Assembly: GCA_029945855.1 (NCBI GenBank)
Contig: JAQSDJ010000108.1
Coordinates: forward strand, 1-36,348
DNA from: Lacunisphaera sp.
GTDB taxonomy: Bacteria > Verrucomicrobiota > Verrucomicrobiia > Opitutales > Opitutaceae
Direction of reading: 5' to 3'
DNA: 36,348 nucleotides
Shown: positions 17,024 through 32,742 of the stretch, piece after piece
Layout: every line of letters starts with the position of its first letter
How positions within the stretch are numbered: position 1 is the first letter of the stretch
The notes under the pieces: generated by a model
The model's database searches: none
Told to the model about the DNA's origin: nothing
What the model saw: the letters and a program-made list of their open reading frames with translations, nothing else
Position numbers and translations under genes: made by a program

Positions 17024-19000
17024 ATGAAAAGATCATTCTTCTCCCTCTCGACCTTGCTGGCGGCGCTGGCGAGTCTCGCCTCGGTCGCGATGGCCCTGCC
17101 GTCAAACGGTGTTCCCATAGTTCAAGCTGGAACGGCGGTGGCCGTGGTGGTCACCCCGGATCGCCCGAACGCAGTGGTCCGCTATGCGGCCGAGGAACTC
17201 GTCTATCACGTGGCCAAGGCGACCGGTGCGAAACTCGCGGTCGTGACCGAATCATCCATGCCTGCTGGCAGCCAGAGCCGGATCTTTCTGGGGGGGACCC
17301 ACGCCGCTCACGCGGCGGGCATCGATGTCGGGCAGATCACTCCCGAGACGTTTGTACTGCGGACGGACGGTCGCGACCTTTACATCGCCGGCCGGGATGG
17401 TGAAGGCGAGCCCCTCGATCGGGACACTGCCGCCGGCACGCTCTTCGGCGTGTACGAATGGTTGGAGCGGGATGCGGGGGCGCGCTGGGTCTGGCCCGGC
17501 GAACTCGGCACCTACGTTCCGAAGGCCAGCACGATAACGGCCCAGCCCGTCGACGTCTCGATAACCCCGCGCTTTTTCCAGCGTTATGTCCGGCCCGGCC
17601 TCGGGTTCACCAGCGGCAATCCGGCGCTCGGCTTCACCAAGAAAGCCGCGGAGGAATACGCCAGGGTGCAAACGATCTTCCTGCGCCGCAACCGGATGGG
17701 GCGGAGCGAGCGGATGACCTACGGCCACGCTTTCACCGATTGGTGGGAGAAATACGGCGCAGCGCATCCGGAATGGTTCCAGCTCGTCGACGGCAAGCGC
17801 GGCCCTGTCAGGCCCGGCGCCCGATACTCGATGTGTGTGTCGGATGCCGGTTTCCAACGCGAAATCGTCCGGCTCTGGCGCGAGAAGGGTGGCGCCCGGG
17901 ACAAGTCCGGCCGGCCCAGCTTCATCAATGTCGTCGAAAACGACATCCTTGGACAGTGTGAGTGTGACAACTGCCGCGCTTGGGATGGGCCGACGCCGCC
18001 TGACGCGATGAAGTACTACGCCCCTAACTTCAAGGTGTACGGTTCCCGCTTCGTTTCCGATCGCTATGCGCGTTTCGCGTCCGCTGTGCAGCAGCTGGCG
18101 GCGGCGGAAAACCCGCAGGCGGTCACGATCGGCTACGTGTATTTTAACTATTTCCAAGCCCCGACGTCGGACGTGAAGCTCAACGAAAACATCCTGCTCG
18201 GCTTCTGTCCCTCTGCCGGTTGGTATCCGAGGACCGACGACGAGCATGTCTGGTACAAGCAGCAGTGGAAGGGCTGGCGCGACACCGGTGCCCGGCTCTT
18301 CTTCCGGCCGAACTACTTTCTGGACGGCTACAGCATGCCGTACATCTTCGCGCACCAGTTTGCGGATGACTTCCAGCACAACGCGAGGAATGGCATGGTC
18401 GGAACAGACTTCGATGCGCTCACGGGCCAATGGGGCACGCAGGGGCCAAACCTTTACCTCTTGATGCGACTGCATGTGACGCCGGACGCGAATCCCGACT
18501 CCATGCTGGCCGAATACTATTCGGCCTTCGGTCCGGCGGCCGCGCAAGTGAAGGCATATTTTGATTACTGGGAAAGCTACACCATGGACAACCGAAAGCT
18601 GATCAACGACGTGTTTTACGATCGGGTCGCGATCCGCTGGCGAACGTGGGCCAAGGCGCCGCACCGGGTCTATCCCGCTGAATGTTTCCTCCCGGCCGAT
18701 GCGCTGCTAGCGCAAGCCGCCGCCGCCGCCGTGAACGAGCCGCAGGCAGCCGCGCGCGTGCAGTTTCTCCGGACCGGCCTCGAGCACGCCAAGCTGTGCG
18801 CAAAGGTGGCCGCCCTGCTCACGCTCGCCGATCCGGAGGCGACGGCCGAACGCGGCCAGAAGGCCTTGCTTGAATTGCTCGCGTTTCGGCGTGCGCACGA
18901 GCGCGACTGGTTCGCGAATCTCAATCACAACGCCTGGGTGGAGGATCTCAGCTGGAAGCTCGCCAATGAAACAAAGCAGCCCGCGGAGTACTATCCCTAA
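17024..19000 (+). CDS. DUF4838-type secreted protein with alpha-glucuronidase N-terminal-like region, 658 aa (paralog A)
   Basis: Signal peptide MKRSFFSLSTLLAALASLASVAMA; AAEELVYHVAKATGAKL...TLFGVYEWLERDAGARWVWPGELGTYVP; CECDNCRAWDGP. Confidence 0.75.
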   Translation: MKRSFFSLSTLLAALASLASVAMALPSNGVPIVQAGTAVAVVVTPDRPNAVVRYAAEELVYHVAKATGAKLAVVTESSMPAGSQSRIFLGGTHAAHAAGIDVGQITPETFVLRTDGRDLYIAGRDGEGEPLDRDTAAGTLFGVYEWLERDAGARWVWPGELGTYVPKASTITAQPVDVSITPRFFQRYVRPGLGFTSGNPALGFTKKAAEEYARVQTIFLRRNRMGRSERMTYGHAFTDWWEKYGAAHPEWFQLVDGKRGPVRPGARYSMCVSDAGFQREIVRLWREKGGARDKSGRPSFINVVENDILGQCECDNCRAWDGPTPPDAMKYYAPNFKVYGSRFVSDRYARFASAVQQLAAAENPQAVTIGYVYFNYFQAPTSDVKLNENILLGFCPSAGWYPRTDDEHVWYKQQWKGWRDTGARLFFRPNYFLDGYSMPYIFAHQFADDFQHNARNGMVGTDFDALTGQWGTQGPNLYLLMRLHVTPDANPDSMLAEYYSAFGPAAAQVKAYFDYWESYTMDNRKLINDVFYDRVAIRWRTWAKAPHRVYPAECFLPADALLAQAAAAAVNEPQAAARVQFLRTGLEHAKLCAKVAALLTLADPEATAERGQKALLELLAFRRAHERDWFANLNHNAWVEDLSWKLANETKQPAEYYP

Positions 19001-19009
19001 GGCCCAGCC

Positions 19010-21040
19010 ATGAGGTCAATGGACAAGCCCGCACCTGACGCCCGGCAGGTTCGCCCTGCCAGTGCCGACCGCATCCTTCCGCTGATGTGGGCGGGACTGT
19101 TGACGCTCGCCTTCGCGGTAGGTGCCCGGGCCGACGTCGAGCTGGTGAGAAACGGCGAGGCAGTCGCGGTCGTGGTGATCGCGGACGACGCCAACGCGGT
19201 TAGCCGCTACGCGGCGGAGGAGATCGTCTATCACGTACGGAAGGCGACGGGCGCGACTCTTCCGATCCTAACCGAGTCGGCGGCCTCCGCCGGTCCCCGA
19301 ATTTGTGTGGGGGCGACGCGCGCTGCGCGGAAGGCGAATATCGCGGTGGACCGGTTGGCGCCAGAAACGGCGATGATTGTCACGACAGGCACCGCGCTGA
19401 TCATTGTAGGGGGTGACGCCGCGGGTGATCCCTTGGCAACAGACACGTTCGCGGGCACGCTGTTCGGCGTTTACGAATGGCTCGAGCGGGATGTCGGCGT
19501 GCGCTGGCTCTGGCCCGGCGAGCTTGGCACGTACGTGCCGGAACTCCGGTCACTCCGCGCGACGACCGCGAATCTCACGGTGGCCCCCCGTTTCTTCCAA
19601 CGCAACGTTAGGCCGGGCCTTACATTTAAGGGCGAACATGCCGAGCTCGGGTTCACGCCGGCCGTTGCAGGGGAGTATGCGCGCGATCTCGCCATTTATC
19701 TGCGTCGGCACCGGATGGGCCGGAACGTGCGGCTGAGCTACGGCCACGCGTTCACCGATTGGTGGGCGAAGTACGGCGCGGAGCATCCGGAGTGGTTTCA
19801 ACTCGTAAAGGGCAAGCGTGGGCCGACCCGGCCCGGCGGGAGCTACTCGATGTGCGTGTCGAATCCGGAGCTGCACCGGAAGATTGTCGAACTTTGGCGG
19901 GGAAAGCGCATGCGGTCTTCCGGAGCGGAGAGCCGTTTCGTCAACGCGATCGAGAACGGGATCATGGGCTTATGCGAGTGTGACAGTTGCCGGGCCTGGG
20001 ACGGTCCGCAGCCAGACGGCTTCCTTGAATTCTATCCGCCGCAATCGAAGGTGATGGGATCGCGCTTCGTCACGGACCGGTACACGCGGTTCTGGCTCGC
20101 GGTGCAGCGCGAGGCGGCGAAGACGGATCCGACGGCGACGGTCGTCGCCTATAACTACTTCAACTATTTTCATCCGCCGACCGCGGGAACCAGACTGGGA
20201 GCGCAGATCCTGGTCGGCTCGTATCCCTCGGCCGGCTGGTATCCGCGCTCCGCGGAGGAACAGGCGTGGTTCCTGGCGCAATGGAGCCAGTGGCAGGAGA
20301 CCGGGGCGCGGCTATTCTCCCGCGGTAACTACTGCCTCGATGGCTACAATCTCCCCTGGATCTTCGCGCATCAATTTGCCGACGAGTTTCGGCATCAGGT
20401 GCGCCACGGGATGGAGGCGACCGACTACGACGCCCTCACGGGACACTGGGCGACCCAGGGCCCGAATCTTTATCTGCTGATGCGCCTGCACACGCGGCCC
20501 GATGCGTCGGCAGAGGAGCTGCTGGCGGAGTACTATGGGGGCTTCGGCGCGGCGGCGCCGGCGGTGAAGGATTACTTCGATCACTGGGAAAGGCACACGC
20601 AAGGGCAGCGCGAACAGGCGAATCGGCTGTTCGCGGACAACACCACGCGCTGGCGGGCCTGGGCGACGGCGGCGCATCTGCTCTTCCCGCCGGAAAGCTT
20701 CGTGCCGGCGGAGGCGATCCTCGCGCGCGCGGCGGTCCTCGCCGCCGACGACCCGCAGGCCGCCGCACGCGTGGGTTTTCTGCGTGCCGGGCTCGCGCAC
20801 GCAAGACTGGAAGTCGACGCCGCGCGCGAGCTCACGCTCGCCGGTCCGGCGGCGAACCCAGAGCGCGGGGCCGCCGCGCTCGCCAAGCTGATTGCATTTC
20901 GACGTGCGCATGAGCGCTCCTGGATCAGCAACTTCAATCACGCTGCCTGGGTAGAGGACCGGAGCTGGCGGCTGGCCGAGCCGCGGTTGCTGTCGGGTTC
21001 CCCTTCATTCGCTCCAGGTGAAACCATCGCCTCGCCGTAA
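19010..21040 (+). CDS. DUF4838-type secreted protein, 676 aa (paralog B)
   Basis: Clear end-to-end similarity to the 17024-19000 product (GTLFGVYEWLERDVGVRWLWPGELGTYVP; CECDSCRAWDGP; YGHAFTDWWAKYGAEHPEWFQLV). Confidence 0.75.
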   Translation: MRSMDKPAPDARQVRPASADRILPLMWAGLLTLAFAVGARADVELVRNGEAVAVVVIADDANAVSRYAAEEIVYHVRKATGATLPILTESAASAGPRICVGATRAARKANIAVDRLAPETAMIVTTGTALIIVGGDAAGDPLATDTFAGTLFGVYEWLERDVGVRWLWPGELGTYVPELRSLRATTANLTVAPRFFQRNVRPGLTFKGEHAELGFTPAVAGEYARDLAIYLRRHRMGRNVRLSYGHAFTDWWAKYGAEHPEWFQLVKGKRGPTRPGGSYSMCVSNPELHRKIVELWRGKRMRSSGAESRFVNAIENGIMGLCECDSCRAWDGPQPDGFLEFYPPQSKVMGSRFVTDRYTRFWLAVQREAAKTDPTATVVAYNYFNYFHPPTAGTRLGAQILVGSYPSAGWYPRSAEEQAWFLAQWSQWQETGARLFSRGNYCLDGYNLPWIFAHQFADEFRHQVRHGMEATDYDALTGHWATQGPNLYLLMRLHTRPDASAEELLAEYYGGFGAAAPAVKDYFDHWERHTQGQREQANRLFADNTTRWRAWATAAHLLFPPESFVPAEAILARAAVLAADDPQAAARVGFLRAGLAHARLEVDAARELTLAGPAANPERGAAALAKLIAFRRAHERSWISNFNHAAWVEDRSWRLAEPRLLSGSPSFAPGETIASP

Positions 21041-25124: not shown

Positions 25125-26594
25125 ATGACCCGCGCTTTTCATTCCGCCCTCTTCCTGCCCGCGTTCGCGCTAGCAGGTGCGGTGAACTCCGTCGCTCTCC
25201 CGGCGGCCCCCCGTCCTAATATCCTCCTGATTGTCTCCGACGATCACGGTCGCGAGGCCCTCGGCAGCTACGGCAACCCGGTCGTCCGGACCCCAAATCT
25301 GGACGCGCTCGCGGCGGACGGTACACGGTTTACCAACGCCTTTTGCACGGCGGCGAGCTGCAGTCCGTCCCGTTCCGTCATCCTGACCGGCCAGCAGAAT
25401 CATCGCAACGGCATGTACGGACTTGAGCACGACGACCACCATTTCAGCTCTTACGCCAACGTGAAAAGCCTGCCGGTGCGGCTCGCGGAAACCGGCTACC
25501 GGACGGCGCGCGTGGGCAAGTTTCACGTGGCTCCCGCAGCCGTCTACGGATTCCAAACGATCCTCTCCGGCGGCAAGGCCAACGATCCGACGACGATCGG
25601 CCGCAGTCCGGTTGAGATGGCGGAGCTTTCGCGCGGGATCATCGAGGCGGCGGACACGCGGCCCTTCTTCCTCTATTTCGCGACCGACGACCCGCACCGC
25701 GGCAACGCCGTGCTACCCGACGGCAAGCCGACGTTCGACACCTATCCGAGGCCGAATCCGTTTGGCAACCGGCCGGAGGGTCGACCGGGCGTGGTTGCGG
25801 AGCGGTATCGGCCCGAGGACGTGATCGTGCCCACCTATCTCTCCGACACGCCGGAGACGAGGGCTGAACTCGCGGAATATTACCAGGCGATCTCGCGGCT
25901 CGATCAAGGGGTCGGCCACCTGATCCAGATCCTGAAGGACACGGGGAAATACGAATCGACCGTGATCATCTATATTTCTGATAACGGCGCGCCCTTTCCG
26001 GGCGCGAAGACGACGCTCTACGACGTCGGCATGCAACTGCCGTGTCTCGTGCGCGCACCGGGTCGGAGGCATCCTGGTTCGGTGCAGGACGCGATGGTCA
26101 CGTGGGCGGATCTGGCGCCCACGCTCCTCGAGGTTGCGAGCGTGCCCACCGATCCGGCGGAGTTCGACGGCCGCTCATTCCGCGCGGGATTGGATGGTGG
26201 GGAGCTGCGTGGCTGGGACGAAATCTTTGCTTCGCACAGCTTTCACGGGATCACGATGTATTATCCGATGCGCGTGGTGCGCACGCGGCAGCACAAGCTG
26301 ATCGTCAACCTTGCGCACGAGCTGACATTCCCCAACGCGAACGACCTTTATCACTCCCCGACCTGGATCAGTGTGGAGCGCTCCGCCGGCCAGCAGCTGG
26401 GACGGCGTACGATCGAGCAGTTCCTGCATCGACCGAAACTCGAACTGTACGATCTGATCCGCGATCCGGATGAGATCCATAATGTGGCTGACGATCCGGT
26501 GTATCAGACGGTGAAGGCGGAGTTGCTGAGGAAGCTCAAGGCGTGGCAGGCAGCGACGAAGGATCCGTGGCTGCATAAATGGAGCTACGAATGA
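25125..26594 (+). CDS. Type I (Cys) sulfatase, S1 family, heparan N-sulfatase-like, 489 aa
   Basis: RPNILLIVSDDHGREALGSYG; formylglycine motif CSPSR in AASCSPSRSVILTGQQNHRNGMYG; ATDDPHRG; signal peptide. Confidence 0.9.
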   Translation: MTRAFHSALFLPAFALAGAVNSVALPAAPRPNILLIVSDDHGREALGSYGNPVVRTPNLDALAADGTRFTNAFCTAASCSPSRSVILTGQQNHRNGMYGLEHDDHHFSSYANVKSLPVRLAETGYRTARVGKFHVAPAAVYGFQTILSGGKANDPTTIGRSPVEMAELSRGIIEAADTRPFFLYFATDDPHRGNAVLPDGKPTFDTYPRPNPFGNRPEGRPGVVAERYRPEDVIVPTYLSDTPETRAELAEYYQAISRLDQGVGHLIQILKDTGKYESTVIIYISDNGAPFPGAKTTLYDVGMQLPCLVRAPGRRHPGSVQDAMVTWADLAPTLLEVASVPTDPAEFDGRSFRAGLDGGELRGWDEIFASHSFHGITMYYPMRVVRTRQHKLIVNLAHELTFPNANDLYHSPTWISVERSAGQQLGRRTIEQFLHRPKLELYDLIRDPDEIHNVADDPVYQTVKAELLRKLKAWQAATKDPWLHKWSYE

Positions 26595-28120
26595 GCCGTT
26601 TCCACACCGTATTCGCCCCGCGCATTTTCCCGCTGCGTCCCGGCCTCATCTGGCTGATGGTGGCCGGCTGTACCGCGGGCGCGCCAACGCGGGCCGCCGT
26701 GTTCATGGCCGACGGGGCCAAGGCCGGGGAGATCACGCAAGATTCTGCCATCATCTGGACCCGGCTGACGCAGAAGGCGGAACGCAACGTGCCGGGAATT
26801 CCTTTTCCCCACGTACAGGTCGATCCCAAGGGCATCCCGATACCGCCCGGCAAGACCGCCTATGAAGCCGACGCGATCCGGGTGAGTGCGCCCATCTCCG
26901 CGGCGCGGCAGCTGGCCGGCCACGCGCTGGAGGAGATGGCGGGCGCCGTGCCCGGTGCACCGGGTGCGGTGCGGATCGCCTACTGGCCGGCGTCGGCCGG
27001 CGAGGGCACGGCCCGACGCACCAGCCGGGTCGCCGTGACCGCCGCGAGCGACTTCACGGCGCAGATCGCGCTGCACGACCTGCAACCGGGCACCCGTTAC
27101 CGGTTCCGGGCGGAGGGCTTCCTCCCGGGCCGCGACGAGGTGGCCGGGACCTTCGAGGGTGGCTTCAAGACGGCGCCCGTGCCCGGCACGCCGGCGCGCA
27201 TCAGTTTCACCGTGGCGACCTGCCAGGATTACGATCGGCGGGACGACCCGGAAAACGGGCACATGATCTACGCGGCCATGGGCCGCCTCCAGCCGGACTT
27301 CTTCGTGCATACAGGCGATATCGAGTACTACGACAAGCCCACGCCGCTGGCCACGAACGTGGCGCTCGCTCGCTTCAAGTGGAACCGCATCTTCGCATTG
27401 CCGCATCAACGGGCGTTCCATGCGCAGACGAGCAGCTATTTCATGAAGGACGACCACGACACCCTGAAGGACGACGCCTGGGCCGGTCAGACCTACGGCG
27501 ACCTCACGTGGGAGCAGGGGCTCGCCCTGTTCCGCGAGCAGGTGCCGATCGGCGTGAAGACCTACCGCACGGTCCGTTGGGGCAAGGATCTGCAGATCTG
27601 GCTGGTCGAGGGCCGCGACTTCCGGAGCCCGAACGACCAGCCGGACGGACCCGGAAAAAGCATCTGGGGCGCGGAACAGAAGCGCTGGTTCTTCGACACC
27701 GTCCGGGCCTCCGACGCAACCTTCCGGATCCTGATCAGTCCGACCCCGCTGGTCGGACCGGACCGTGAGGGGAAGGCCGACAGCCACGCCAACCGCGCCT
27801 TCGCCCACGAGGGGCGCCAATTGCGTGAATTCATCGCCACACAGCGAAACATGTTCGTGCTCAGCGGCGACCGGCACTGGCAGTATGCCTCCGTCGATCC
27901 GCTGACTGGCCTGCGGGAATACGGCTGCGGGCCGAGTTCGGATGCACACGCGGGCGGCTTCAGCGAAGCCGAGCGGACGCCAGCCCACCGTTACCTGCGG
28001 ATCAAGGGCGGCTTTCTCTCCGTCCTGGTCGAACGCGTGGACGGCCATCCCCGGGTCGTGGTTCGTCACCACGCGGTCGACGGAAAACTCCAACATGAAG
28101 ATGTGCTCCCCGCAGAGTAG
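26591..28120 (+). CDS. PhoD-like alkaline phosphatase/phosphodiesterase, ~509 aa
   Basis: TCQDY, HTGDIEYYD, MKDDHDTLKDDAW, LSGDRHWQYA; ATGA overlap with the sulfatase stop. Confidence 0.85.
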   Translation: MSRFHTVFAPRIFPLRPGLIWLMVAGCTAGAPTRAAVFMADGAKAGEITQDSAIIWTRLTQKAERNVPGIPFPHVQVDPKGIPIPPGKTAYEADAIRVSAPISAARQLAGHALEEMAGAVPGAPGAVRIAYWPASAGEGTARRTSRVAVTAASDFTAQIALHDLQPGTRYRFRAEGFLPGRDEVAGTFEGGFKTAPVPGTPARISFTVATCQDYDRRDDPENGHMIYAAMGRLQPDFFVHTGDIEYYDKPTPLATNVALARFKWNRIFALPHQRAFHAQTSSYFMKDDHDTLKDDAWAGQTYGDLTWEQGLALFREQVPIGVKTYRTVRWGKDLQIWLVEGRDFRSPNDQPDGPGKSIWGAEQKRWFFDTVRASDATFRILISPTPLVGPDREGKADSHANRAFAHEGRQLREFIATQRNMFVLSGDRHWQYASVDPLTGLREYGCGPSSDAHAGGFSEAERTPAHRYLRIKGGFLSVLVERVDGHPRVVVRHHAVDGKLQHEDVLPAE

Positions 28121-30542
28121 CCTGAAAATAGCCGGACGCATCCTGATGGGCACCGCCCTCGCGGTGGCTATGGCGCACGCGGCCGGGCCGGCAACCGTGG
28201 AAGGCGAGGCGCTGTGCGCCGCCTTGGTGCGCGAGGTTTCCCTGCCGGTGAAGCCCGCGTGGCGGCCGATGATGCTGAATCTGGCCGAGCTACACGGCCG
28301 GAGCATCATGCCGGCGGTGGGGCACTTCCCCTATCCCTATCAGTCGATCGGGCCCGGATACGAGAATGGCCGCATTTTTGGTCACATCGACCTCACGCAC
28401 GAGCGCCTCGACACCGTGCGCGCGCGGCCGGAGCACGTGCGCAACCAGATCCGCAACGAGCTCGCGGGCCAGCAGGCGGACGGAATGATCCCGGGCATCA
28501 TCTGGTTCGACCCGGCGGGCAAGCCGACGTGGAAGGATTTCAAGAGTTTCCCCCCGATCTGGGTGGTCTCCGCCGAGGCTTACGTCGACCAGACGGGCGA
28601 CGAGGCGTTCCTGCGCGAGTGCCTTGAGGCGTTGCGCCGGCAGATCGGATGGTTTGAGGCCAAGCGCGGTCTGCCGAACGGCGGATTCTACTACCTCGAC
28701 CAGGTCAATGACAATTGGGAGAGCGGAATGGACGAGGGCATCCGATATAATCCGCGCCCGGCGCAGCGGTCGGCGGCGGTTGATGCGTGCGCCCACGTCT
28801 ACCTGCTCTACGACCACGCGCTGCGCTGGAGCCGGCGCGTGGGCCAGCCGGCGGAGGAGTGGGAACGCAAGGCAACCGCACTGAGGGCGTTCATCCGCAC
28901 CGAATTATGGGACGAGGGCACCGGATTCTTCTACGATGCCTGGGTGGTGCGTGATCCCGCGAAACGGCACCTGGCGTTCGAGGGCATGTGGCCGGTGGTG
29001 GTGGGAGCCGCGACAAGCGGACAGGCGCGGCGCGTGATCGACGAGCACCTGCTTAATCCGCGGGAGTTTTTCACCCCGCATCCGATCGCCACGGTGGCGG
29101 TGTCGGACCCGCGGTTCGAACTGCGCATGTGGCGCGGCCCGGCCTGGAATTGCATGACCTATTGGGCGGCGCGCGGCTGCTTGCGTTATGATCGCGCCGA
29201 CGGGGCGCGCCGGCTGCTCGAGGCGGCGCTAGATGCAACCGCGGTGCAGTTCGAACGCACGGGCGCGATCTGGGAATTCTATCACCCGCTGCTGGGCGAC
29301 CAGGGAGAGTTGAAAAGGAAGCCGACGGCGCGGAAAGAACCATGTCGCGACTACATCGGGCACAATCCGCTGTTTGCGATGGCCGACCTGTGGCGGAAAA
29401 CCGGCGGGTCTGAGGCACCCGCAGGAAGGGAGTTTCAACAGGTGGGGGTGAGGCAACAGCTGCCCGCCTTCGCCGACCGGCTCGCGCAGCGGACGACGCA
29501 CCCGCTGGCGTGGGCGTCGGGAGCGGTCGCCGATTTTCACGTCTGGCGAGAACTCGGGCGAAAGAAAGTCCTCGACTGCCTGCAGAATCCGCCGCCCCCC
29601 GCGCCGTGGAACGCGATGGTGATCGCCGAGGAGGATCGCGGCAGCTACATCGCGCGAAAGATTGTGTTCAACGTTACGGGCGACAGCCGGGTGCTCGCCT
29701 TGATGACCGTGCCGAAGGGGCCGGGCCCGTTTCCGGCCGTGCTGTTGCTGCACGATCACGGCGCGCGATTTGACATAGGCAAGGAAAAGGTCATCCGGCC
29801 GTTCGCGACGGACGCGGCCCGGCTGAGGTCGGGAGAACAGTGGGTGGCGAACTATGGCGGAAAGTTTCTCGGCGACGAACTTGCGCAGCGCGGGTATGTG
29901 TGTTTTGCGACCGATGCGCTCAACTGGTCTGATCGCGGCGGCGGCGGTTACGGTGGACAGTCGTCGCTGGCTTCGAACCTCATGCATCTCGGCATGTCGC
30001 TCGCCGGACTGATCGCTTGGGAGGATCTGCGCGCCGCCGAATTTCTTGCCGGCCAGCCCGAGGTCGAACGCGGGCGGATCGCCGCCCTCGGCTGGTCGCT
30101 GGGTGCGTTCCGGGCCTGGCAGGTGGCGGCGATGTCGGAGCACATCGCCGCTGGTGCGGCGGTTTGCTGGATGAGCGAGGTAAAAAGCGTGATGACCGCC
30201 GGCAATAATCACACGCTGTCACAATCCGCGTTCACGATGCTGCATCCGGGGCTACTCGACGATCTCGACTACCCGGACATCGCGAGTCTCGCCTGTCCGA
30301 AGCCGATGCTCTTTTTCAATGGCCGGGAGGATGACCTGTTTCCGGTTGACGGCGTTGAGCGCGCATACGCCAAGATGCAGGCGGTCTGGGACTCGCAGGC
30401 GGCGGGTGATCGACTGGTCACGAAATTGTGGAATACCGGTCACACCTTTGACGCCGCGATGCAGGCCGCGGTGTTCGATTGGCTGAAGGGCGCAACGGCC
30501 CCGCCCGGCCGACCGCCGCCGCCCGATTCAACGCGCCGCTAG
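28095..30542 (+). CDS. Two-domain protein: GH63/GH37-like (alpha/alpha)6 glycosidase fused to alpha/beta-hydrolase (acetyl-xylan-esterase/dienelactone-hydrolase-like), ~815 aa, secreted
   Basis: N-domain: ESGMDEGIRYNPRPAQ, FEGMWPVV, WRGPAWNCMTYWAARG, AIWEFYHPLLGD. C-domain: LLLHDHGARF, ALGWSLGAFRAW (GxSxG), NGREDDLFPVD, NTGHTF. Start set at ATG 28095 before a signal peptide. Confidence 0.75.
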   Translation: MKMCSPQSSLKIAGRILMGTALAVAMAHAAGPATVEGEALCAALVREVSLPVKPAWRPMMLNLAELHGRSIMPAVGHFPYPYQSIGPGYENGRIFGHIDLTHERLDTVRARPEHVRNQIRNELAGQQADGMIPGIIWFDPAGKPTWKDFKSFPPIWVVSAEAYVDQTGDEAFLRECLEALRRQIGWFEAKRGLPNGGFYYLDQVNDNWESGMDEGIRYNPRPAQRSAAVDACAHVYLLYDHALRWSRRVGQPAEEWERKATALRAFIRTELWDEGTGFFYDAWVVRDPAKRHLAFEGMWPVVVGAATSGQARRVIDEHLLNPREFFTPHPIATVAVSDPRFELRMWRGPAWNCMTYWAARGCLRYDRADGARRLLEAALDATAVQFERTGAIWEFYHPLLGDQGELKRKPTARKEPCRDYIGHNPLFAMADLWRKTGGSEAPAGREFQQVGVRQQLPAFADRLAQRTTHPLAWASGAVADFHVWRELGRKKVLDCLQNPPPPAPWNAMVIAEEDRGSYIARKIVFNVTGDSRVLALMTVPKGPGPFPAVLLLHDHGARFDIGKEKVIRPFATDAARLRSGEQWVANYGGKFLGDELAQRGYVCFATDALNWSDRGGGGYGGQSSLASNLMHLGMSLAGLIAWEDLRAAEFLAGQPEVERGRIAALGWSLGAFRAWQVAAMSEHIAAGAAVCWMSEVKSVMTAGNNHTLSQSAFTMLHPGLLDDLDYPDIASLACPKPMLFFNGREDDLFPVDGVERAYAKMQAVWDSQAAGDRLVTKLWNTGHTFDAAMQAAVFDWLKGATAPPGRPPPPDSTRR

Positions 30543-30600: not shown

Positions 30601-32742
30601 ATGGCCGCCTACCACTTCAAAGCCACCTCCTCTTCGCCTGAGGTCACCTGGTCGATTATGCATCCGGTGAGACCGTATTCCGGGTACATGCGTGAGGTCA
30701 TAGCCGCGGCGGCGAGTTATCACGTCGACAGTTTCGAGGTTTGCGGGGACGTCCATGGCTCGGGCGGCGGTCTCGACGGTGCCATTCTGTTCCGGGACTA
30801 TGCTGTGGCCGCCGGCGGCGTGGATCCGACCACGGTAGCACAAAATGTCGCGCGACTGCAGAAAATCATCGAGCTGGCGCACGACTCGGGTCGTCCGATG
30901 TACTACTGGCATCGCGAGGTGATGGTGCCGCAGTCGGTCGTCGAGCAAATTCCCGGACTGCTCGATGAGAACGGCGAGTTCAACCTGATGGGGGAGGCTT
31001 ACCAGTCGTTGATACGCTCGAAGATCCGGGAATTCTTCGAGCAGGTGCCGGCGATGGATGGGCTGGTGTTGACGCTTACCGAGTCGGATTACTCGGTGAT
31101 CCACAACTCCGATCAGCAGCGCTATCCCTCGCAGGAGGTGGTAGCGCGGGTGGTGGGAGCCTTCGCGGAAGAGCTGCAGGCCCGCGGGAAGCGGTTTATT
31201 TTGAGAAGCTTCGGCTCAATAGCGCAGGACTACGAGGATATCCTGAGAGGCGCAGAGATGGTTGCCGAGCGGTTCTCGTTCGAAATCGAGACGAAGATCA
31301 CCCCCTATGACTTCAGTCCTTTTCTACCCTTCAACCCCTACCTGCGCAAGAGCGGCGCCTGCTCGCTGTCGGCGGAGTATGATTCGATCGGCGAGTTCCT
31401 GGGCGCGGGCTTCCTGCCTGCGCCGGATCCCGAACGGGTGATCGAATCCGTCAACCACGCCCGGCAGCAAGGGGTCGACCGGCATGTCATACGTATCGAC
31501 CGGATCGGCCATGCCGCATTTCTGTCGACGCAGTCGGTAAATCTGCTCGCGTTCGATCGCGCCATTCGCGACCCGAACGTGAAGGCTGACGCGATTTGGA
31601 CTGAATGGGCCGATGCCCACTGGCCGGATTGTCCGGAGGCCATGGTGGCGGTGATGCGGCAAGGGATCGCGATGACCAAGGGGACCCATTTCATCGACGG
31701 GCACGTCATCTTTCATGCTTTTCCCATCCAGCCGGACCTTAAGTGGCTGAAAGCCTGTGGTATATTCTCGGTTTTTCGACCGCGCCAACCGCTGGACGAA
31801 CATGTGGGCATGTGGGGTATTCTGACGAATCGTGTCACCCCGGCGAGGGAAACCCTGCTTCGCGAAAAACACGAGGCGGTGGCGCTGGCAGACGAGGCCT
31901 TACGCACGTTGGAACTACTCAAAGGAAAGTTGTCACAGCCGGAGTTTCAACTGGCGAAAACGGCGTGGCGGAATGCGGCGCAGGTCACCCGAGCGATCTA
32001 CCATTGGTGTCGCGGCGTATGTGCTTACTTTAACGACATGGAGGCCGGCCGGCCGGATCATCCGACACTGGATCAGGCCATTGTGGCGGCGCGGGCGGAG
32101 TTCGAAACAATGCTCGGCGTGAGACTCACCAAGGGTGGGGGGGCGTCGCGGGCGGCACCCGGAGTGACCGCCCACGAGTACGGTGGCGGATCAGAGCCGG
32201 AGGAGGACTGCATTGAAGACGCCTATATCCAACCTATCTGGCGGCTACTAGTGCAACTCCCCGACGAGTACGAGGGCGAATTCAGGGAGCGGATGTATTG
32301 GGCGATGCGGGGCGAAGTCCAGGACTGCATCGTGTGCGGCGGTTTGCTGGACGATCTGCGCGTGCACCGCTACATGCACGCGAGTCACGCCCGGCTCATC
32401 GCCGGACGGCCAGCGAGAGCTGCGGGCAATCGTGTGTTTCCCAACGGCTTTATCGACGTGCGGCTGGCGCTGCCAGCGGGCGAAGCCTGCCGGTTGATCG
32501 TCCGCGGGGAAGCGGGCCCCCGGCGGGAGTTCCAGATTACGGTTGAAGAGGAAAACCATGTCGTTCGATTTTCTGCCCAGGGGGAGTACGTGCGTGTCTT
32601 GACAAGGTCCGCGGGGCCGCGCCGTGCCGCGGAAACGGTGCGGGTTCGCATCCAGAAGGTCGGCTCCGACTTTCCTCTAATTTACGCGATCGCAACACTC
32701 AGTGGCTCAGGCCAACCCTCACATCATCCGCTTTATGACTAA
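30601..32742 (+). CDS. Uncharacterised 713-aa protein, possible TIM-barrel glycosidase-like enzyme
   Basis: Long ORF co-directional with neighbours; segments such as SFEVCGDVHGSG, MDGLVLTLTESDYSV, ILRSFGSI, DAIWTEWADAHWPDCPEAM suggest a beta/alpha barrel; no signal peptide seen. Confidence 0.6.
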   Translation: MAAYHFKATSSSPEVTWSIMHPVRPYSGYMREVIAAAASYHVDSFEVCGDVHGSGGGLDGAILFRDYAVAAGGVDPTTVAQNVARLQKIIELAHDSGRPMYYWHREVMVPQSVVEQIPGLLDENGEFNLMGEAYQSLIRSKIREFFEQVPAMDGLVLTLTESDYSVIHNSDQQRYPSQEVVARVVGAFAEELQARGKRFILRSFGSIAQDYEDILRGAEMVAERFSFEIETKITPYDFSPFLPFNPYLRKSGACSLSAEYDSIGEFLGAGFLPAPDPERVIESVNHARQQGVDRHVIRIDRIGHAAFLSTQSVNLLAFDRAIRDPNVKADAIWTEWADAHWPDCPEAMVAVMRQGIAMTKGTHFIDGHVIFHAFPIQPDLKWLKACGIFSVFRPRQPLDEHVGMWGILTNRVTPARETLLREKHEAVALADEALRTLELLKGKLSQPEFQLAKTAWRNAAQVTRAIYHWCRGVCAYFNDMEAGRPDHPTLDQAIVAARAEFETMLGVRLTKGGGASRAAPGVTAHEYGGGSEPEEDCIEDAYIQPIWRLLVQLPDEYEGEFRERMYWAMRGEVQDCIVCGGLLDDLRVHRYMHASHARLIAGRPARAAGNRVFPNGFIDVRLALPAGEACRLIVRGEAGPRREFQITVEEENHVVRFSAQGEYVRVLTRSAGPRRAAETVRVRIQKVGSDFPLIYAIATLSGSGQPSHHPLYD

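Follow-up and report, generated by a model that had tools for sequence, protein, structure and literature searches.

A single gene in an Opitutaceae polysaccharide locus encodes a GH63-like glycosidase and a serine carbohydrate esterase in one reading frame, and we consider it probable that this is a real fusion, private to its lineage, that arose by deletion at a short microhomology and gives one exported, bicatalytic enzyme. The gene lies at 28095–30542 of the window, the 36 348-nucleotide stretch of DNA that was analysed, and all features described here are on its forward strand. As the initial annotation had proposed, the frame is uninterrupted: it runs from the ATG at 28095 to the TAG at 30540–30542 with no earlier stop, and specifies an 815-residue product that begins MKMCSPQSSLKIAGRILMGTALAVAMAHAAG. 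Pfam places two domains on this one chain, MGH1-like_GH (PF22422, E = 4.3e-35) followed by Abhydrolase_7 (PF12715, E = 1.3e-9), and the motifs previously quoted for them (ESGMD, GWSLG, EDDLFP and NTGHTF) were all located in the sequence. Residues 1–30 (28095–28184) form a predicted signal peptide, identified by eye from its basic start, hydrophobic core and AHA-A end. This is the only leader in the protein and it points to export. The PhoD-like phosphatase gene just upstream (26579–28120), whose homologue directly precedes a stand-alone esterase gene in the related genome G114, shares its last 26 bp with the fused gene. Such overlaps are common for co-translated genes.

The N-terminal domain (28170–29402) was assigned to the GH63/GH37-type (alpha/alpha)6 glycosidases from Pfam, a structure model and an alignment. 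It matches MGH1-like_GH with 122 bits, against a gathering cut-off of 27, and its sequence also matches GH63 members of the YgjK and Thermus type; the NCBIfam GH63 equivalogs are matched too, but with scores that fall far short of their cut-offs. An AlphaFold model of this half, built with homologues fetched for this analysis (pLDDT 91.7, pTM 0.89), has as its top structural matches GH63 YgjK, the GH37 trehalases and the Thermus mannosylglycerate hydrolase. Both catalytic acids are present. The general acid is D213, within WESGMD (28716–28733), and the general base, which had not been named before, is E394, within IWEFYHP (29268–29288) and aligned with the Glu of the YgjK PIQENYNP segment. D213 is found in 31 of the 32 rows of the glycosidase alignment and E394 in every one; the Asp acid and Glu base roles were assigned after GH63 and GH37 (PMC7263609). 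The domain thus resembles Escherichia coli YgjK, the Thermus enzyme TTHA0978 and the Mycolicibacterium glucosylglycerate hydrolase, all of GH63, in its (alpha/alpha)6 fold and in the positions of the Asp and Glu, although its identity to solved GH63 members is just 17–20%. It differs from these enzymes in being predicted to be secreted, in belonging to a polysaccharide locus and in carrying an esterase domain.

The esterase domain (29430–30506), an alpha/beta-hydrolase, was defined by the same three kinds of evidence. Its match to Abhydrolase_7 scores 38 bits against a gathering cut-off of 21, and S668 in GWSLG (30090–30104), D746 in EDDLFP (30327–30344) and H783 in NTGHTF (30432–30449) make up a catalytic triad that is invariant in all 29 esterase rows of the alignment. 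The domain also has an HDHG loop at 29751–29762. The AlphaFold model of this half, again built with fetched homologues (pLDDT 88.4, pTM 0.88), matched 3g8y and 3nuz first, followed by CE15 glucuronoyl esterases, acetyl xylan esterases and the BT1017 pectin methylesterase. The SusD/RagB-associated esterase-like proteins 3g8y (BVU_4111) and 3nuz (BF1801) are the best matches in both sequence and fold, at about 18% identity, but their chains are stand-alone. CE15 enzymes, such as OtCE15A of Opitutus terrae, and BT1017 have a related alpha/beta-hydrolase fold, and here the similarity is one of fold only. CE15 enzymes have the nucleophile motif GCSRxG, with a catalytic Arg; the fusion esterase has GWSLG, which rules out its membership of CE15. 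Its Ser-Asp-His triad is arranged as in BT1017, in which the arrangement is canonical (PMC7939467). The deacylation originally suggested is one option among several for a domain with these modelled properties, since its fold neighbours are acetyl, uronate-methyl and glucuronoyl esterases.

The two domains meet close to where the initial annotation had expected, at the start of the range 29400–29480. The junction segment LWRKTGGSEAPAG (29388–29426) consists of the glycosidase tail followed by the stretch that comes after the esterase signal peptide in G114, and the join point falls within it, at about 29400–29415. The glycosidase matches stop no more than about 10 residues from where the esterase matches start. 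The segment KTGGSEAPAGREF between the domains, about 13 residues, starts within the junction segment; it is modelled with low confidence in the esterase half and is probably a flexible linker. Comparison with G114, in which the glycosidase ends LWRESGGRSE-stop and the esterase reads leader-VAGGSDAPAAG, places the join (LWRKT-GGSEAPAG in the fusion) exactly where the leader of the G114 esterase ends; the glycosidase stop codon and the esterase leader are both missing from the fused frame. At the DNA level, CCGGCGGGTC is common to the fused gene and the G114 esterase at the join, and the tail of the G114 glycosidase has GGCGG, so that a CGGCGG-type microhomology marks the junction. The simplest reading, drawn from living homologues, is that a deletion between short matching runs kept the frame while removing the glycosidase stop codon and the esterase leader, together with any spacer between them.

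We also considered that the genes are truly separate and were joined by the assembler or by a sequencing error. The join is known from a single assembly, on one contig, that assembly is a draft of 330 contigs, and the fusion is absent from every other genome examined, all of which would suit an artefact. A base error in the stop codon, however, would have kept the esterase leader in frame, and the leader is absent. The join is in frame and without a homopolymer, the genome has no further copy of the esterase, and a microhomology of about 10 bases is far shorter than the word lengths usually used in assembly. Purifying selection acts on both halves up to the join (pS 0.59–0.70 versus pN 0.15–0.23), and neither these values nor GC3 show a break there. 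Because the esterase leader and the glycosidase stop codon are gone and the join carries a microhomology, a real deletion fusion fits better than a frameshift or read-through, which we judge unlikely; we regard an artefact of any kind as quite improbable.

Homologues of each half were sought in overlapping draws of 252 genomes of the family, 273 of the order and 385 of the class, and in 78 glycosidase loci from many phyla, a collection that may omit records of the source genome. No second case of both halves in one gene was found among them, which bears out the view that the architecture is not standard and rules out a conserved one. Among the 252 family genomes, a close glycosidase occurs in 12, including the source (47–77% identity in the others), and a close esterase in six (58–65%); three genomes (the source, G114 and G322) have both halves, and they are fused in the source only. 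These stand-alone homologues are far above chance similarity, with identities of up to 77% for the glycosidase and 65% for the esterase. The glycosidase homologue is usually a protein of 400–450 residues; the G114 esterase has 403 residues and its own leader, and is encoded directly downstream of the PhoD homologue. No window-type esterase was found in the flanks (up to 6 kb) of the 78 glycosidase loci, and long frames from a phylum search (752–1005 residues) gave distant glycosidase matches only (25–29%), with no window esterase found. In the other species of the genus Lacunisphaera that were searched, neither half was detected at E 1e-20. The source genome has a stand-alone glycosidase paralogue (65% identity, contig C223); no other Abhydrolase_7 protein was found in it. 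That homologues are always encoded as two genes, which had been named as grounds for doubting the fusion, holds for every homologue found, and the fusion in the source genome still stands. With all homologues separate, the fusion is a private event among the genomes searched. Each half also occurs in genomes without the other, so on these distributions the glycosidase and the esterase are not obligate partners.

The same distributions bear on what the fusion does. It might be real yet neutral, with the domains working independently as in relatives and the tether bringing no advantage. In relatives each half is an enzyme in its own right, often in genomes that lack the other half, and one-off joins with different partners are also seen (a nucleoside hydrolase for the esterase in G345, a 713-residue protein for the glycosidase in G013), as neutrality would allow. 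On the other hand, selection has kept both domains intact, and fused carbohydrate-esterase domains can act in synergy: BoCE6-CE1 showed intramolecular synergy on corn cob, though not on every substrate of the same study (PMC7110780). On balance we hold a neutral fusion to be unlikely. That one of the domains lacks activity, or only binds, seems very improbable indeed; no measured activity was found for the subfamily of either domain within the material examined, but none of the five expected catalytic residues is missing, all of them are conserved, and constraint extends across both domains. Of the secreted polypeptide with two activities that was first proposed, the architecture, the intact catalytic residues and the single leader are thus supported, and the dual activity is predicted from them.

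We therefore prefer a functional fusion, which the locus neighbours, acting as they do on polysaccharides, also favour. In this view, a deletion at a short microhomology would have taken the glycosidase stop codon and the esterase signal peptide and so have joined a serine carbohydrate esterase to an inverting exo-glycosidase of GH63-like type, two proteins that relatives encode separately. The product would be a single bicatalytic enzyme that is exported and has a flexible linker. Most likely the esterase would act first, unmasking an oligosaccharide by hydrolysing an acetyl ester or the methyl ester of a uronate, after which the glycosidase would remove the terminal sugar; both steps would take place in the periplasm or on the cell surface. 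The tether would hold the two activities at 1:1 on the same substrate. The order of action, the substrate and any synergy are guesses from the families and by analogy with other fused esterases (PMC7110780, PMC8040265).

Esterase domains are already known from other multicatalytic enzymes. Natural examples are BoCE6-CE1, DmCE1B and a Penicillium acetyl xylan esterase/arabinofuranosidase (PMC7110780, PMC8040265, PMC5615437), each with two complementary carbohydrate activities per chain, as predicted for the fusion, although the domain families differ. Nothing specific to the pairing of a GH63-like domain with Abhydrolase_7 was found in the literature searched, and the present pair of families appears to be new. 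It neatly illustrates how a multicatalytic carbohydrate enzyme may originate, with one stop codon and one leader lost and both active sites kept. Since the parts are separate in relatives (both occur in G114 and G322), a direct comparison of the fusion with its unfused counterparts could reveal whether the tether is of benefit. The fusion also hints that the two predicted activities meet on the same polysaccharide.

The surrounding genes, by their families and order, form a polysaccharide utilisation locus (13409–33865) that encodes, in sequence, a TonB-plug receptor, two DUF4838 proteins, a Pec_lyase-like protein, a GH31 enzyme, a sulfatase, the PhoD-like phosphatase, the fusion, a 713-residue protein (30601–32742) and a GH88 enzyme. 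The lyase-like, GH88 and sulfatase genes suggest that the target is a uronic-acid-containing, probably sulfated polysaccharide. In G013 the order is sulfatase, glycosidase in one frame with the 713-residue protein, and GH88; the PhoD homologue is found at another place in the fetched stretch, and no esterase homologue was found at the fetched locus. In G114 the order is sulfatase, PhoD, esterase. The locus in the window thus looks like a composite of these two arrangements. When composition was compared on sampled contigs of the assembly, the tetranucleotide correlation with the assembly was 0.63–0.66 for the window contig (1–36348) and 0.60 for C223, and 0.80–0.97 for the other sampled contigs. 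Horizontal acquisition or mis-binning of these two atypical contigs is possible, and either could also account for the lack of hits in the other Lacunisphaera species. Given the unusual composition of the window contig, the gene itself is more secure than its assignment to this host.

A broader proposal casts the MGH1-like exo-glycosidase found in uronide loci as a 'hub' that has repeatedly captured a catalytic locus partner: the esterase in the window, a domain resembling oligogalacturonate lyase in one member of the Bacteroidales and the neighbouring 713-residue protein in G013. In the source organism the esterase would then have to free the residue that the glycosidase cleaves, making the fusion a channelling enzyme for a novel esterified glycan. 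We regard this proposal as rather unlikely. Judged from the frames found, it is not rare for these domains to enter one-off fusions, and the partner differs each time.

Several other features of these loci and frames were recorded. Both members of the tandem DUF4838 pair (17024–21040 of the window) are conserved with the locus in relatives. The 713-residue protein, which has no match in Pfam or NCBIfam, is likewise conserved in related loci and is perhaps an unrecognised carbohydrate enzyme. Its homologue shares a frame with the glycosidase at L145:7283–11161 (G013:C22), where the two are joined by a low-complexity linker. This linker contains a run of 12 G, so the join may reflect either a variable tract or an error in sequencing. 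A Planctomycetota frame of 1047 residues (L098:4015–7155) ends with the glycosidase, its approximately 660 N-terminal residues having no Pfam match. In one member of the Bacteroidales, an 829-residue protein (L108:5896–8382) has the same glycosidase family fused to an oligogalacturonate-lyase-type Pectate_lyase22 domain. At L022:520–2724 (G345), an inosine-uridine nucleoside hydrolase domain is fused to the C-terminus of an esterase homologue.
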